DNA from: Natrinema mahii
Lineage (GTDB): Archaea; Halobacteriota; Halobacteria; Halobacteriales; Natrialbaceae
Assembly (NCBI GenBank): GCA_000690595.2
Contig: JHUT02000016.1
Coordinates: 1 to 46,264 of the forward strand
Length of the DNA: 46,264 nt
Direction of reading: 5' to 3'
The notes beneath the pieces are model-generated. The model did no database searches, was not told the DNA's origin, and saw only the letters and a list, made by a program, of their open reading frames with translations. Positions 34,982 through 45,710 of the stretch are shown here, in pieces; the first letter of the stretch is position 1, and each line of letters opens with the position of its first letter. Position numbers and translations under genes: made by a program.

Positions 34982-35198
34982 CGAAGCCATCCCGACAGCT
35001 CTTAACCAACACGACTGGCACTTCGCGGAGGATTGTTGGGTAAGGTCAGGTCTTTCCGGTCGGGATGAATGACACCGCCTTCCCGCTGATCGCCCAGATA
35101 TCCGCTGAAGAGCAGCACCGGATTGCGGCGGGAACCGACAGTCAGAGCTGTCATGGGCCTCGGTTTAGTTCGACAACGACCACTGGTGGAACAGCTTT

Positions 35199-35225
35199 AA
35201 TAGGAACAATAGGCTCAACAGGCAG
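35199..35225 (-). repeat. Three degenerate 9-bp units of the ACCTATTNN type
   Basis: On the plus strand AATAGGAAC, AATAGGCTC and AACAGGCAG follow each other with a period of 9 bp, the reverse complement of the CCTATT repeat seen in tandem at 40795 and 45495. With only three units, one of them degenerate, this may be chance. It sits just after the end of the hydrolase gene on the minus strand. Confidence 0.35.
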
Positions 35226-37610: not shown

Positions 37611-38213
37611 GACACGCCTCTATCGAAGTGTCTCTGGGAGACGCTCACAGATATCTCGAGCCCGAACGGATAATCGATGAGGAACGAACCGCCGTGGAAA
37701 GAATCGACAAAACTCGAGCGAAACGGGATACGCCTCTCTCGATTTGTTTCGCTCGGAGGGGTGTTGCCCGAGAAAGGAGCGACCGGGGTGGGCGGACAGA
37801 GACACCCCTTTATCGATGTGTTCGAAGTGTTCGTGGGACGGTGAAAACGCACGAGCGGACGAGAAGAAAAGACGTATGTTATCAAGAATTCGGACGAAGA
37901 AGCGGTCTGAGTGGTGATTGATGCCGATTTCGTGTGTGAAGAACGTTTTGTGGTAGCGGAAGCGGCGTCGAACAGCAGCAGAACACATCGATGAGAAGCC
38001 TACACATCGATTAAGGGGTGTAGGGGTTCCTAGTCTAGTTCTAGACTAGTATTGTAGTAGTATAGAAGAAAAAAGACGGCTGCTAAAGAAGTCTTCCGAC
38101 TTATCCAGTGATTTCATGCTCTTTCAGCGTTCTCCGGAGTCTCTGGTCCCGGTCGCAGTCGCTGACCACCCCCACCCCCTTCGACACTTCGAACACATCG
38201 ATAGAGGGGTGTC
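37611..38213. other. Candidate replication origin with opposed iterons and an AT-rich palindrome
   Basis: A repeat with consensus ACACCCCTNTATCGATGTGT occurs in plus orientation at about 37611, 37727 (weak) and 37801-37829, and in minus orientation at 38001-38022 and 38185-38213. The units at 37801 and 38185 agree at 28 of 29 positions on opposite strands. Between them lies AT-rich DNA with the palindrome CTAGTCTAG-CTAGACTAG arms at 38030-38049. Opposed initiator boxes around an unwinding element next to an orc1/cdc6 gene is the layout of haloarchaeal origins. The repeat differs from the common chromosomal origin recognition box as I know it. There is no other gene in 37466-38204. Confidence 0.65.
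38030..38049. repeat. Perfect palindrome in the AT-rich part of the origin
   Basis: Arms CTAGTCTAG and CTAGACTAG around TT. AT-rich sequence follows (TATTGTAGTAGTATAGAAG), a candidate duplex-unwinding element between the opposed iterons. Confidence 0.5.
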
Positions 38214-39398
38214 TGTCTCGGTGCGTTCCGCCGGAACACTTCGTCGCTCGCTCGCGTCGCGCTCGGCGACAACCGGCCGCCGAACCTCTTTCTTTACGGG
38301 CCCTCCGGCACCGGCAAGTCACTCATCACGAAAGCCGTCTGCAAAAACATTGGCTCCATCTGCGAGACACGAGATATTCGGTTCGGCATGATCGAAGTCA
38401 ACTGCCAGGATCTCGACACGCTCGGCGTGGCGGTCTACGAACTGGCGAGTCGCGCCGCGGAGGAAGCCGGCGTCGAGGTAGACGTCCCGAAACACGGCGT
38501 CGCGACGAAGGAAAAATGGGACGAACTGTATCGCATCGTCAACGAGAACTTCGACTCGGCGGTGTTCGTCCTCGACGAACTCGACATGCTCGTCGGCCGA
38601 CGCGACAAGCAAGAGCCGGCGTTTTCCCGTCTTCTCTATCAACTCTCTCGAGCCGGTGCGAACAACGACCTCACTGCTCACGTCTCCGTCGTTGCGATCT
38701 CAAACGACACGAAGATGATGGAGTCCGTGGGGAGCCGAGCCCTGAGTTCCTTTACGCCCGAAGACGTCCACTTCGACGACTACGACGCGAACCAGCTCCA
38801 GTCGATCCTCCGCCGGCGCCGGGACGCCTTCTACGACGACGTTCTCGACGAGGACGTCATCCCGCTGGCAGCGGCCTTCGCCGCCCAGACCCATGGCGAC
38901 GCTCGCAAGGCCATCGACCTGATACGCGTCGCCGGCGAACTCGCGGAACGGGAGGGCGACGAGCGCGTTCGCGAGGGCCACGTTCGCGAAGCCCAGGACA
39001 AGGTCGAGAAGAACCGCGTCCTCGAGGTCGTTCGCGGTATCAGCACTCAGAAGAAGCTCTGCCTCTACGCGACGGCCGCCGTCGCCGCTGAAACGGACGA
39101 CGAGTCCGCCCGGAGTACGACCGGCTACCGCGTGTACCAGTTTCTCACCGACGTGATCGACGCCGAGCAGTACCACCAGGAGACCTACGTCAACAAGATG
39201 AAAGAGATGACGACGTACTCGCTCGTCGACTTCGAACGCCGGAGCCACGGCCCCAGCTCGGGCATGTTTCTCGAGTTCCAGTTCGGCGAGCGCCCCGAGA
39301 CGATCCTCGAAACGCTTCGGGAAGACTCCCGTATTGACACGGTTTCGGCTGACGAAGTCTCGAGCGTCGTCAAAGCGCAGGTCCGAAACGAGAACTGA
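38205..39398 (+). pseudogene. Orc1/Cdc6 replication initiator, 5' end broken
   Basis: The frame holds Walker A GPSGTGKS (near 38298), Walker B AVFVLDELDML, sensor 1 VVAISNDTKMM, sensor 2 HGDARKAIDLI, and a C-terminal winged helix (TTGYRVYQFLTDV, SLVDFERRSHG). That is an AAA+ origin-binding initiator of the Orc1/Cdc6 family. There is no ATG, GTG or TTG between the in-frame TAG at 38202 and the ATG at 38388, and a start at 38388 would lose Walker A. VPPEHFVAR-like sequence, expected before the P-loop, lies in another frame at about 38225-38250. So the first 50 or so residues are missing or frameshifted, right at the iteron that ends at 38213. It is a damaged initiator unless the sequence holds an error. 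Confidence 0.75.
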
Positions 39399-40794: not shown

Positions 40795-40848
40795 ACCTAT
40801 TTCATCTATTGTACCTATTATACCCATTGTACCTATTCTACCTATTTC
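40795..40848 (+). repeat. Six tandem 9-bp repeats (ACCTATTNN)
   Basis: The units are ACCTATTTC, ATCTATTGT, ACCTATTAT, ACCCATTGT, ACCTATTCT and ACCTATTTC, in exact 9-bp phase. They lie about 220 bp before the DUF234 ATPase gene. The same unit recurs before parA (45388-45701), so this is a candidate second partition site or ParA-system operator. No gene is convincing between 40569 and 41068. Confidence 0.8.
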
Positions 40849-41068
40849 TCTGTGATTGGCGGTAATTGCCCTGAATCTAGAATCAAGCTACCGGTACCGT
40901 CTCTCGGTCCGATTACTGTTCGAGTTCCTTTACCTGCTTTGACGCTCTGTTCCTTGCTGCGGAAGTCGGATCGGCGTCGCCAGCCGATTCGATCGGTGCC
41001 AGCCCACCATTGCGGGGTGCGATCGACGAAACGCATAAGTCATTATCACGATAACTATTATCCAGAGT

Positions 41069-42478
41069 ATGACCTTCTACGACCGGGTCGACGAGCTCGA
41101 CGCCCTCGAAACAGCGCTCGAGTCGCAAGGCCACGAACTCTACGTCGTTTACGGGCGCCGTCGCGTCGGGAAGACCGAACTCCTCAAGGAGTTCTGTTCC
41201 GACCGGCCGCACATCTATTTCCTCGCGTCCCAGGAGGCGGAACACCGCCAGCGGGAGAAATTCGTCGAGCAAATCGCCGGTCATTTCGACGATCGCGTTC
41301 CGCGCATCGAGGGCTGGGACGAGGCCTTCGACTACCTCGCCGAGAAACTCGCAACGCAACGACTCGTCGTCGTCATCGACGAGTTCCCCTATCTGGTCGC
41401 GGAGAACGACTCGCTCCCGTCGTACATCCAGTCGTTCGTCGACGAACACCTGCAGACGACGGAGTCGATGCTCGTTCTCTGCGGCTCGAGTGTCAGCACC
41501 ATGGAATCGGAGGTCCTCGGTCACGAGAGTCCGCTCTACGGTCGTCGTACGGGACAAATCGACCTCCAGCCGTTTTCCTTTCGGCAGGCTCGAGATGTCA
41601 TCGCATACGACATCGACGACGGGATTCGGTCGTATGCGATCACGGGCGGGACGCCGATGTACCTCACGTTGTTCGATTATACGCGGTCGCTCGCCGAAAA
41701 CGTCCGGTCGCATATTTTGACGCCGACGGCCGTCCTGTACAACGAACCCGAATTCCTGCTCCGGACGGAGTTGCGAAACCCCGCCCGGTACATGAGCATT
41801 CTCGAGGCCGTCGCAACGGGCCATACGACGCCGAACGAGATCGCCGGCGCGACGGGTATCGGATCGGGGCCGCTATCGAAGTACCTGCAGACGTTACGCC
41901 GACTGCGACTCATCGATCGCGATGTCCCGGTGACTGCCTCCGCCAAGCAATCAAAGCGGTCGCGGTATCGGGTCGCAGACGAGTTCCTGCGGTTCTGGTT
42001 CCGATTCGTCGAACCGAATCGATCCGGTATCGAAGAGGCCCCTGGCGTCGTCTACGACGGGACTATCGCGCCGAATCTTCCAGATCACGTCGCGTCGACG
42101 TTCGAGGACGTCTGTCTGGAGGCCGTGTGGGAGGCGATCCGACGCGACGAACTCGGGCCCTACTCGGAGGTCGGTCGGTGGTGGTACGGCGAAGACGAAA
42201 TCGACATCGTCGGTCTCGCGCCGGAGGCTGACCAGGTACTGCTCGCGGAATGCAAATGGACGTCGGACCCGGTCGGCCACGCGCTCGTCGACTCGTTGCG
42301 CGACAAAGCGACCCGCGTTCGATGGGGGCCGGACACGCGTACCGAGGAGTTCGCGCTCTTCTCGAGGAGCGGGTTCGTCGACGGACTCGCCGACGAACTC
42401 GAGGACGACTGGTCGCTTTTCGATCTCTCTGAGATTGATGCCCTTTTTGATTCCGACAGGCAGGGCCGCTGGAGTTAA
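41069..42478 (+). CDS. Archaeal ATPase with C-terminal DUF234 nuclease-like domain
   Basis: This encodes 469 residues. GRRRVGKTE (29-37) is Walker A, VVVIDEFPYLV Walker B, and VLCGSSVSTMES sensor 1, as in the archaeal ATPase family (STAND-like). A winged helix (TPNEIAGATGIGSGPLSKYL) joins to DUF234, where EDEIDIVGLAPEADQVLLAECKW gives the D-x(n)-E-x-K pattern of PD-(D/E)XK nucleases. Family members are very common in archaeal mobile elements; their role is not settled. The DNA before it holds tandem 9-bp repeats shared with the par region. Confidence 0.88.
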   Translation: MTFYDRVDELDALETALESQGHELYVVYGRRRVGKTELLKEFCSDRPHIYFLASQEAEHRQREKFVEQIAGHFDDRVPRIEGWDEAFDYLAEKLATQRLVVVIDEFPYLVAENDSLPSYIQSFVDEHLQTTESMLVLCGSSVSTMESEVLGHESPLYGRRTGQIDLQPFSFRQARDVIAYDIDDGIRSYAITGGTPMYLTLFDYTRSLAENVRSHILTPTAVLYNEPEFLLRTELRNPARYMSILEAVATGHTTPNEIAGATGIGSGPLSKYLQTLRRLRLIDRDVPVTASAKQSKRSRYRVADEFLRFWFRFVEPNRSGIEEAPGVVYDGTIAPNLPDHVASTFEDVCLEAVWEAIRRDELGPYSEVGRWWYGEDEIDIVGLAPEADQVLLAECKWTSDPVGHALVDSLRDKATRVRWGPDTRTEEFALFSRSGFVDGLADELEDDWSLFDLSEIDALFDSDRQGRWS

Positions 42479-42566
42479 TGCGTCAGAATCTGACCACAGT
42501 GGCGCCTCGGGACACCATACGAAACGAGCCGAACCCACGATTCAACAGCTCAAACTGACCAAGAAG

Positions 42567-42853
42567 TCAATCGCTGGCTTCTCCCTCTCGGCTGTATGCC
42601 CAGTACAGAAACAGCCCGACAAACGAAAACCCGGCGACTCCAGCAAGGAGACTCGAGACGGATTCTGTGAGGGAGAAAAACGTCGCCGCTCCCTCGATGC
42701 GTACGCGATCCACACGACGGCACCCAGCAACACGAAAGCCAGTTCTGATCGTGAGACCCGGCCATGATAGTACGCGTATCCGCCAAGCCCGATCATTGCC
42801 ACTCCGAGGACGACCAACACGAAGTGCAGTTCGAGGTTTCCGAGCCACCCCAT
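42567..42853 (-). pseudogene. Small membrane protein with a frameshift
   Basis: From the ATG at 42853 the frame gives two membrane helices (LHFVLVVLGVAMIGLGGYAYY and LAFVLLGAVVWIAYASRE). At about 42690 the coding signal moves to another frame, GAATFFSLTESVSSLLAGVA then FSFVGLFLYWAYSREGEASD, ending at 42567. Joined, they give a three-helix protein of about 95 residues. Without the shift the first frame runs on as low-quality sequence to 42542. It is either a recent pseudogene or a sequencing error in the run near 42690. Confidence 0.6.
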
Positions 42854-42939
42854 CGGGTGGCGTTTCGACCGTGGTCGTGATAAGTATCTGGAGTTATTGC
42901 ATATATCTTATCAACGCTGACAATCAACGCCAACTCGCT

Positions 42940-43830
42940 ATGGGAATGTTCAGCCGCCTCAAGACTGGGTTCGGTATGGCGCGGCGGAGCGGCCGCGTGC
43001 TCAGAGCCCACCCGAAACTGTTCGTGTTCCCGCTCGTCGGTGGACTCTCCGGCATCGCGTTCATCGCAACGTTGTTCGGGAGTCTGTACCTCACGGGACC
43101 GCTTTTCGAAGATCCTGGGCCGGCCGTGTACGCCGCCCTGTTCGTTGCGTACCTCGTCGAAACGTTCATCGCATCGTTCTTCACGGCGGCTCTCGTCGCC
43201 GCGACGCACACTGCCTTCCACGGTGAGGAGCCGTCGATCCGTGCGGCGCTGGCGACAGCCTGGGAGCGGAAACTTCCGCTGTTGATCTGGTCAGTTATCG
43301 CCGCAATCGTCGGCGTGATCATCCGGGCCATCGAGTCCGAAGAGAACCTCGCCGCTCAGATCGTCGCCGGGCTCTTCGCAGTCGCGTGGAGTGTGATGAC
43401 GTATTTCGTCGTCCCCGTGATCGTCTTCCGTGACCCCTCGGTCACGGAGATGTTCTCGGAGAGTGCGCGCACGTTCAAAGACACGTGGGGCGAATCCATC
43501 GGTGCGATGGGAGCGATCGATATCTTCTCGTTCCTGCTGGCGGTCGTCGGCCTCGGACTTGGTGCCCTTACGTTCGTCGTGACTGCGGGCACGGGTACGG
43601 TTCAACTGCTGGCAACGGTACTGATCGGCGGTTCCGCGTTCCTCTTCGGACTACTGGTCGGAAAAGCCCTCAGTGGCGTCGCCAAGACCGCGCTCTACGT
43701 CTACGCGACCGAGAGTACCGCGCCGGAATTCTTCGACGATATGGACTTCAGCGAACTCGGTGGTGACCGGTCGTCCTCCACGCGCGGCCTTGGAGGGGGT
43801 CTCGGTGGCTCCGGTGGCGGCCAGATCTGA
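42940..43830 (+). CDS. DUF6159-family membrane protein
   Basis: The ATG at 42940 gives 296 residues (MGMFSRLKTGFGMARRSGRVLRAHPKL). Six or so hydrophobic helices follow in pairs (LFVFPLVGGLSGIAFIATLFG, LFVAYLVETFIASFFTAALVA, LPLLIWSVIAAIVGVII, VMTYFVVPVIVF), with VFRDPSVTEMFSESARTFKDTWGE in a loop, the typical DUF6159 pattern. The tail is glycine-rich. The function is unknown. A TATA-like GCATATATCTTA lies about 40 bp upstream, which supports this start. Confidence 0.8.
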   Translation: MGMFSRLKTGFGMARRSGRVLRAHPKLFVFPLVGGLSGIAFIATLFGSLYLTGPLFEDPGPAVYAALFVAYLVETFIASFFTAALVAATHTAFHGEEPSIRAALATAWERKLPLLIWSVIAAIVGVIIRAIESEENLAAQIVAGLFAVAWSVMTYFVVPVIVFRDPSVTEMFSESARTFKDTWGESIGAMGAIDIFSFLLAVVGLGLGALTFVVTAGTGTVQLLATVLIGGSAFLFGLLVGKALSGVAKTALYVYATESTAPEFFDDMDFSELGGDRSSSTRGLGGGLGGSGGGQI

Positions 43831-43910
43831 CGACCGCTTCGGTTCGAGGCGAAACTAAACAGGATCTGATTCCCTTCGAACACGCCTTTCGACGAGTGAA
43901 CGGACCGATT

Positions 43911-43932
43911 CACACGGCGTCCCAGCCGTGTG
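43911..43932. terminator. Stem-loop between convergent genes
   Basis: CACACGGC and GCCGTGTG are perfect complements around GTCCCA. It lies between the 3' ends of the DUF6159 gene and the par operon, where a terminator is expected. Confidence 0.5.
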
Positions 43933-43940
43933 TCGCCGAA

Positions 43941-43975
43941 GCGAAGATCACCGATTCGCAGTTATCGATCTTCGC
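43941..43975. terminator. Second stem-loop, at the end of the par operon
   Basis: GCGAAGATC and GATCTTCGC are perfect complements with a 17-bp gap, 2 bp after the stop of the ParA-partner gene on the minus strand. Confidence 0.45.
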
Positions 43976-43977
43976 TC

Positions 43978-44463
43978 TCAATGACTCCCTGACTGTCGTC
44001 GTTCCTCGAGGACGAGTTCGGCGATCCGTTCGGGTTCTTCGTTCGCGAGTCGAAGGACGGCGTCGTGAATCTCTCGGGTTTCTTCGTCGATAACGTCTGC
44101 TTCGGCGAGTGTCGGGACGATCGTCGTTCGGATCGCGTTCTCGAACTCGTCGACCGTCTCGGAGCGAGCGTAGAACGGCTTCTGTTGGACCTCGCTGTAT
44201 TCGAACGCCGGTCCCGCTTCCGCGGGTGATTCTGGTTCGTCGGCCATGCCCGTCGCGTTTTCAGTGGCGAGTTCGGTGTCGGTCAGCGGTTCTGGATCCA
44301 GCTCCCTGTTCGGACTCGAGTCGGACGCTGTCGGCTCCGAAGCGCCCTCGTCGGTTCCTCCCGATGGCGATTTTGCGTCAACCTCGGTTTCGGTCTCGGT
44401 GGTCGAGTCGGCCGTCTCGGTCTCTTCGTCGTCTTCTTTGAGATCGTCGAACGGATTGCTCAT
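43978..44463 (-). CDS. Putative ParA partner (partition adaptor)
   Basis: This encodes 161 residues. The first 100 are acidic, low-complexity and rich in Thr, Ser and Glu, probably disordered. The last 60 (FEYSEVQQKPFYARSETVDEFENAI to ERIAELVLEERRQ) are a helical domain, in which KPFYAR may begin the folded part. The start overlaps the parA stop (ATGA), the position of the parB-type partner in partition operons. No known ParB fold or helix-turn-helix is recognised, so the role is inferred from position. Haloarchaeal plasmids often carry such unclassified partners. Confidence 0.65.
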   Translation of the reverse strand: MSNPFDDLKEDDEETETADSTTETETEVDAKSPSGGTDEGASEPTASDSSPNRELDPEPLTDTELATENATGMADEPESPAEAGPAFEYSEVQQKPFYARSETVDEFENAIRTTIVPTLAEADVIDEETREIHDAVLRLANEEPERIAELVLEERRQSGSH

Positions 44464-45356
44464 CGCTGGATCCCTCCAGTTGCGACGATTTCGGCCAGTT
44501 CCTCGTAGTACGGGATCTGGTCGTTCTCGGGATCGTAGTCTTGGAGCGGTTGGTTGTGCTGGAGCGACCGCGACAGCGCCGATCGATGGCGGATTCCGGG
44601 CTTCGGCGGACTCGTCTCGCCGGCATCGATCGCGTCGAACTCCTCGGCGGTAATCCGGGCGAAGTCAGGTACTGCCTCTTGGAGCGGCTGTCCGGGGTTG
44701 ACTTCGTAGGTCGCCGTGTTGAGGTTCTCGAGGAGTTCCCGATCCTCGGTCTGTTGATCGATCCGGTCCGAGAGCTTGTTCGGGACGACCGCCAGCACGT
44801 CGACGTCGATGTACTCCCGGGCCGGTTCGATGAGTCGCTCCATCGTTCGCTTGTAGCCGCCGATCGCGCTCGAGCCCGGTTCGATCGGGATCATCACGTT
44901 CCCCGTCGCGACGAGGGCGTTGTTGTTGAGCATTCCCGGGTATGCCGGACAGTCGAAGACCACGTACTCGTATTCATCGCCGAGCAGTGGATCGACGATC
45001 TTCGACTTGATTCGTGCCGAGCCCTGCATCGCGCCGGCGAGATCCTTCTCGACATCCTCGAGCGTGTTCGAGGACGGCAACAGATCGAATCCGTGGTCGG
45101 TCGAGCGGATCAAGTCGTGTGGCGTCGCCGACCCCTCGAGGATGACGTCCCCGAGATTAGTCTCGCCTTGATATGCCGCTTCGAACCCGAGCCCGTTCGT
45201 CGCGTGACCGTTCGGATCGAGGTCCGCGAAAAGGGTCGTCCCGTGCTCGGAGAGTTGGCGCGCGAGATTCATCGACGTCGTTGATTTCCCGACACCGCCT
45301 TTCAGAATGACCACGCTGACGGCACGTGGTTCGGCTGTTGTCTCAGTCATTGTCAT
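44460..45356 (-). CDS. parA: ParA-type partition ATPase
   Basis: This 298-residue P-loop ATPase has the deviant Walker A KGGVGKST (19-26, with the signature lysine at 19), ADLDPNGHATNGLG as the A' motif and YVVFDCPAYPGMLNNNAL as Walker B. ParA proteins coat the nucleoid and move plasmid copies through a partner bound to a centromere. There is no N-terminal DNA-binding extension, so it is the short type whose operon is usually repressed by the partner. The ACCTATTNN repeats upstream are the likely centromere or operator. Confidence 0.9.
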   Translation of the reverse strand: MTMTETTAEPRAVSVVILKGGVGKSTTSMNLARQLSEHGTTLFADLDPNGHATNGLGFEAAYQGETNLGDVILEGSATPHDLIRSTDHGFDLLPSSNTLEDVEKDLAGAMQGSARIKSKIVDPLLGDEYEYVVFDCPAYPGMLNNNALVATGNVMIPIEPGSSAIGGYKRTMERLIEPAREYIDVDVLAVVPNKLSDRIDQQTEDRELLENLNTATYEVNPGQPLQEAVPDFARITAEEFDAIDAGETSPPKPGIRHRSALSRSLQHNQPLQDYDPENDQIPYYEELAEIVATGGIQR

Positions 45357-45378
45357 ATTGGTTCGGTTCTATTGATCC

Positions 45379-45396
45379 ACAATAGGAACCTATTGT
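45379..45396. promoter_or_regulatory. Inverted pair of par repeats before parA
   Basis: ACAATAGG and CCTATTGT face each other around AA, 23 bp before the parA start. The half-sites are the same unit as the tandem repeats, so this is a candidate operator for the par operon. Confidence 0.6.
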
Positions 45397-45454
45397 CTTG
45401 GAAGGTTCCGTCTCAGCCTGTTGAGACTGTATTACATTCCTGAAGCATAGTTCT

Positions 45455-45562
45455 ACCTATTGCAACTCAAATCGGTCAAGTAGCTACAGTAAGTGAGATA
45501 GGTGGAGTAGATACAATAGGTTAAATAGGTTAAGTAGGTAGTTGTGGAAAGGTACCTATTGT
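45455..45562. repeat. Tandem 9-bp par repeats, central block
   Basis: A single ACCTATTGC is at 45455. From 45495 to 45539 five units lie in exact 9-bp phase in the reverse direction (GAGATAGGT, GGAGTAGAT, ACAATAGGT, TAAATAGGT, TAAGTAGGT), with a weak unit before them at 45486. ACCTATTGT at 45554 faces the other way. Confidence 0.75.
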
Positions 45563-45674
45563 AGATTGTGTGCCTGACGAGGGAAGCTATCCTACTTCTC
45601 GCCCCTGGAAAGGCTAACTGTAGCTAGCTGTTGGACCGATTTTGCAACAGTTCTCACAACAAGCAGGAAAAGGT

Positions 45675-45710
45675 ATCTATTGCACCTAACCTACCTATTG
45701 CTCTATTGGC
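45675..45710 (+). repeat. Tandem 9-bp par repeats, distal block
   Basis: ATCTATTGC, ACCTAACCT, ACCTATTGC and TCTATTGGC follow in 9-bp phase, the last two units less or shifted in match. Together with the central block and the operator pair they fill the otherwise gene-free stretch 45357-45893. Confidence 0.65.

Follow-up and report, generated by a model that had tools for sequence, protein, structure and literature searches.

The delta/omega system of plasmid pSM19035 combines a ParA protein with an RHH ParB that acts on contiguous 7-bp heptads, WATCACW (PMC9499535). Its parS sites consist of several short consecutive repeats, direct and inverted, that overlap promoters, and several parS are present per plasmid (PMC9499535). 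In SegAB of the Sulfolobales, a ParA-type ATPase works with a small partner that recognizes specific sites, which are found upstream of the operon as well as scattered elsewhere on the replicon (PMC12284271). According to a ParB-fold survey from 2025, ParAB pairs are generally absent in archaea (PMC12704722). Haloarchaeal cells possess several large replicons, and the open-access literature searched gave neither a centromere nor a centromere-binding protein for them.

Here, a 46,264-bp window was analyzed that corresponds to a whole contig of the 3.79-Mb, 24-contig genome of Natrinema mahii, for which Natrinema thermotolerans is the closest named relative among those compared. Its parA gene (44463..45356, minus strand) encodes a protein of 298 amino acids with the deviant Walker A motif KGGVGKST, which matches Pfam AAA_31 (2e-28), the ParA-like PHROG 164 (1e-40), and ParA/Soj in the PDB (3.5e-16); Pfam recognized no N-terminal DNA-binding domain or HTH in it. 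The ATG of the partner gene (43978..44463, minus strand; 161 amino acids) overlaps the parA stop codon. In the partner, the N terminus carries the motif MSNPFDDL, and a variable acidic linker leads to a conserved 78-residue C-terminal domain (residues 84-161; 43981..44214, minus strand) that is presumed to bind DNA. As the first-pass annotation had stated, this gene encodes no recognizable ParB: no ParB-type match (ParB nuclease-like/CTPase, HTH) was obtained even at E values up to 1 or 5, and searches of Pfam, NCBIfam, PHROG, and PDB gave no match for the partner. AlphaFold predicts three helices for the C-terminal domain (mean pLDDT of 82) and a low-confidence linker, and the model of the full-length protein is of low confidence except at its N- and C-terminal ends. 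Structure comparison, including Foldseek, and a PDB profile search did not match the domain to any known DNA-binding fold. Judged by eye, a strand-like segment with helices after it could suit an RHH protein; no RHH match was found in Pfam, the PDB profile search, or Foldseek. Within the order, relatives of the domain are present in 188 of 392 genomes and 54 of 95 genera, and scans of IMG/VR found no viral relatives of either the partner or ParA.

The module has the sequence hallmarks of a type I (ParA, Walker-type) system, namely, a ParA with a deviant Walker A motif, a partner in the same operon, and a cis repeat that is linked to the operon and confined to its replicon. It also has those of type Ib, since its ParA lacks an N-terminal HTH according to Pfam, the arrays are upstream of parA, and the partner is small. 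With pSM19035 it shares the combination of ParA and a small partner as well as promoter-overlapping sites made of short direct and inverted repeats, several per plasmid. However, the contiguous heptads of pSM19035 have a 7-bp step whereas the register here is 9 bp, the haloarchaeal partner has no detectable similarity to any solved RHH protein, its gene overlaps parA, and different plasmid families have different words. By analogy, the simplest account is that the partner would be to the 9-bp array what omega is to the 7-bp heptads. SegAB is alike in having an archaeal ParA-type ATPase and sites both upstream of the operon and dispersed, comparable to the satellite arrays described below. SegB, in contrast, reads a 13-bp palindrome, TCTAGASTCTAGA, and is chromosomal, whereas the unit here is a phased 9-bp ACCTATTGY on a plasmid, and no sequence link between SegB and the haloarchaeal partner was found. 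Canonical ParABS systems also possess a ParA ATPase, an adjacent partner gene, and cis sites, but the haloarchaeal partner has no ParB/CTPase or HTH domain. Phage PhiCh1 has a ParA of 35% identity and a protein, gp46 (L123 3240-3635), whose gene overlaps parA and which has an N-terminal NPWED motif (compare NPFDDL) and an acidic linker. However, the C-terminal domain of gp46, possibly RHH-like, is not detectably related, and the 9-bp period upstream is not significant (z of 1.9); membership of PhiCh1 in this family is not supported.

The repeat word ACCTATTNNACCTATT, with up to 3 mismatches allowed, matches the window 19 times compared to 0.68 expected, and none of 100 shuffles reached 19. The 10 exact copies of ACCTATT (shuffle mean of 1.25) are all confined to 40795-40846 and 45388-45699. 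When units with at least 5 of 7 matches are counted, the longest 9-bp-phased run has 8 positions versus at most 3 in 60 shuffles. This run is the main array (45470..45539, minus strand), with 1, 2, 2, 1, 2, 0, 0, and 1 mismatches in steps of 9 bp; five or six units at 45486-45539, opposite in direction to the satellite array, had been noted before, of which the direction was right and the extent too short. Further upstream, at 45668..45699, one inverted unit accompanies three phased positions (45675-45699; mismatches 1, 2, and 0); three or four units had previously been placed at 45675-45710. Single exact ACCTATT units on the plus strand are found at 45455..45461, a conserved position at about -105 from parA, and at 45554..45560, about -200, within a conserved CAATAGGTACCTTT block. 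The inverted pair AATAGGA/ACCTATT (45381-45387, minus; 45388-45394, plus) lies 24 bp before the parA ATG (45356), close to the 45379-45396 and 23 bp given initially, and is presumed to be a promoter-proximal operator. The satellite array, located 3.6 kb beyond parA in an intergenic region, has the six units in exact 9-bp phase that had been reported at 40795-40848 (40795..40846, plus strand; mismatches 0, 1, 0, 1, 0, and 0). Finally, the three weak units reported at 35199 correspond to four phased ones at 35190..35223 on the minus strand, which are indeed weak (mismatches 2, 1, 1, and 2), uncertain, and may be due to chance.

Orthologs of parA with 73 to 100% identity are present in 30 of 119 related genomes, and all 30 have ACCTATT units upstream, typically 7 to 20 units over up to 600 bp. 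The consensus unit is ACCTATTGY in a direct 9-bp register: 248 same-strand pairs lie at multiples of 9 bp up to 54, of which 73 are spaced by 9 bp, 69 by 18, 34 by 27, 26 by 36, 22 by 45, and 24 by 54, and any other spacing occurs at most 4 times. The partner gene directly adjoins parA in 30/30 orthologs, encodes proteins of 117 to 188 amino acids, and overlaps parA by ATG and stop codon in 29, the exception being L017, where it starts 9 bp further on. The most conserved parts of the upstream regions are the inverted pair, a CAATAGGTAGAA block, and the CAATAGGTACCTTT block. The pair forms an identical block in the alignment; as judged by eye, its minus-strand half is present in all 30 orthologs and both halves, 7 bp apart, in 24. 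Compared with the window, N. thermotolerans has a 9-bp gap in the satellite array, and the arrays at parA also differ by 9-bp gaps, as expected if whole units were gained or lost.

The first-pass annotation had proposed a co-occurrence check across genomes, with random placement of the arrays as the outcome that would speak against a link. With a strict three-unit pattern in the 119 related genomes, array and parA were found together in 25, parA only in 5, the array only in 2, and neither in 87 (Fisher p = 1.4e-18), and the partner accompanies parA in each case. In the 5 parA-positive genomes that fall below this threshold, the word appears altered in those examined, for example to AGCTATT/TAGCTA. 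A four-unit pattern matched in 45 of 125 genomes of the family and a reversed control pattern in none. In 17 parA-positive genomes, 46 of 47 array matches are on the parA contig, which accounts for 9.5% of the DNA according to contig and genome sizes entered by hand; this count leaves aside the fragmented assemblies G047 and G071, whose further arrays on other contigs possibly belong to the same replicon.

At more distant loci, the period is retained and the word changes. For the upstream regions of 75 par loci, including 45 from distant clades, the strongest autocorrelation lag was 9, 18, or 27 bp in 91% of cases, compared to 27% of AT-rich control tiles, and about 9% of the loci have no clear 9-bp period. 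Because the loci are homologous, the effective sample is smaller than 75, an effect partly offset by the many genera and different words. Codon periodicity does not account for these lags, since at par loci the remaining multiples of 3 show no signal, averaging zero. The words by clade include ACCTATT, AGCTATT, ACCTAAG, GGTAGCT, ACGAATCGT, TTGTACAA/AATTTGT, and others, with the limitation that one word per locus was picked by an automatic score and a few of these are not true units but GC-rich words that resemble coding sequence. The same module architecture, with its own words, is found on pNRC100 and pHS3 of Halobacterium salinarum. The segment preceding Y-x-R in the partner C-terminal domain differs between DNA-word classes: x-Q-x-x-x-Y-A/P-R is paired with ACCTA/AGCTA, LRRSIY-T/A-R with ACGAATCGT, and TAKSIYVR with TTGTACAA/AATTTGT. 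Clades without the Q in this segment are also without the CCTA/GCTA core, an association that is only suggestive because the partners have a common ancestry. ParA and its partner co-evolve (r = 0.71), and a partial Mantel analysis could not attribute the word signal to the partner alone, as both contribute, with a higher partial correlation for ParA (0.37) than for the partner domain (0.24). A second par locus in G000 (L002, G000:C21:63193-64056) has a ParA of 48% identity, a related-looking partner, and a weak 9-bp period upstream.

Taken together, the arrays are likely the cis site, centromere and operator, of a plasmid-borne ParA module whose partner would be the reader, and the best reading of the sequence data is a haloarchaeal partition family with a cognate centromere/operator, undescribed so far. 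The earlier proposal, in which the partition system would have a binding protein and site of its own, agrees with the outcome of the co-occurrence check and, at the sequence level, with linkage, register, replicon confinement, and word specificity. A special link of the second array to the DUF234 ATPase is not supported. The DUF234/ATPase_2 gene (41069..42478, plus strand; Pfam DUF234, 3e-23) adjoins the satellite array, and either two centromeres or a shared regulator had been suggested on these grounds. This arrangement is shared only with N. thermotolerans, whose DUF234 protein is 95% identical; where a DUF234 gene is near a par locus in two other cases (60% and 74%), no array accompanies it. 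The secondary arrays of other replicons adjoin unrelated genes (PAS sensor, methionine-synthase-like, TnpB, GH88, Usp), among which no common regulon was found, and satellite arrays are mostly intergenic. Since the DUF234 link is not conserved and secondary arrays lie beside unrelated genes, the 40795-40846 array is more likely a satellite site of the par system, and the DUF234 gene is probably not part of it. The DUF234 ATPase also matches the PADLOC candidate defence family PDC-S27 (2.6e-56).

The inverted pair, which lies where a promoter is expected and is more conserved than any other element, together with the mostly intergenic satellite arrays, would also fit arrays that serve only as operators, through which the partner or ParA represses the par operon and a few plasmid genes, the true centromere being elsewhere. 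This is unlikely, as the 7 to 20 units over up to 600 bp exceed what an operator needs, the genes beside satellite arrays have no common function, and a cis partition site would be expected to stay on the parA replicon, as the arrays do. Reading of the arrays by a host-encoded regulator or nucleoid protein might be considered given that the partner domain is not a recognized DNA-binding fold. However, where a genome has two par loci, these differ in their words, and neither word forms a phased pair at the other locus (8/8), and genomes without this parA type almost never carry arrays, which makes a host reader highly improbable. The separate words argue strongly for a reader encoded by the plasmid.

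The window has a Cdc6 gene and two perfect ORB-like boxes at a distance of 3 to 7 kb, as might be expected if the arrays were replication iterons or Orc/Cdc6 boxes, but the ORB word TTCGAACACATCGAT has no relation to ACCTATT, and the arrays follow parA, not cdc6; on pNRC100 the neighbors of parA are AbiE genes and an IS element. A role in replication instead of partition therefore has a very low probability. The arrays are also distinct from haloarchaeal ORBs, which have a G-string and lie near cdc6: the boxes, of the form TTCGAACACATCGAT...AGGG, are separate, at 37806-37826 and 38188-38208, in opposite orientation beside the Cdc6 frame (38388-39398), whose first part has no obvious start codon. 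Boxes and Cdc6 gene are likely to form a replication origin 6 to 7 kb from par. An origin as CRISPR spacers or decayed repeats does apply to three arrays outside the parA replicon (G000:C14, G026:C1, and G015:C1): these adjoin 30-bp CRISPR-type repeats, spaced by 66 to 67 bp at G000:C14 and G026:C1, and because of this flanking they resemble spacers acquired from centromeres of this kind. CRISPR spacers are thus the exceptions to replicon confinement that can be explained. The window arrays, in contrast, have no flanking CRISPR-type repeat, and neither 30-bp flanks nor the spacing of about 66 bp seen at G000:C14; their runs exceed the length of a spacer and are conserved together with parA, and for them this origin is almost inconceivable. 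The G000 case (G000:C14:73530-73689; L128 7531-7689) is a small CRISPR-like array with three degenerate repeat copies 66 bp apart and a spacer of four phased ACCTATT units that resembles the plasmid arrays of G000 itself; G026 has a homologous array with a diverged spacer, and G015 is the third case.

In the partition model, the C-terminal domain of the partner would bind ACCTATTGY side by side along the phased array in its 9-bp register, with contact residues possibly in the segment before Y-x-R. The partner would then stimulate the ATPase activity of ParA, probably via the conserved N-terminal NPFDDL peptide, and nucleoid-bound ParA would move or space the plasmid copies and so segregate them. 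Binding at the promoter-proximal inverted pair would probably repress the parA operon, and satellite arrays elsewhere on the replicon may act as extra loading sites. A more far-reaching version is tentative and somewhat less likely than not: a haloarchaea-wide family with an evolvable word code and a centromere-binding fold that other partition systems lack, in which word identity and not replication genes might set which megaplasmids share a cell, with several dispersed centromeres per megaplasmid. If so, the short segment before the conserved Y-x-R would select the 9-bp word. The module is a concrete candidate for a haloarchaeal centromere and its binding protein, and its presence on pNRC100 of Halobacterium NRC-1 makes it directly testable. 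That a single cell can contain two par loci with distinct words may permit a sequence-based prediction of plasmid compatibility, and such loci supply naturally occurring protein-DNA pairs from which recognition could be decoded.

Phased ACCTATT arrays were also seen beside universal stress protein (Usp) genes in G002 (L126, G002:C8; L127, G002:C15), a genome without this parA, and a similar Usp gene context exists in G024 (L142), where a parA ortholog is present. In the window, the region at about 29520-33660 matches transposase genes on many haloarchaeal plasmids.
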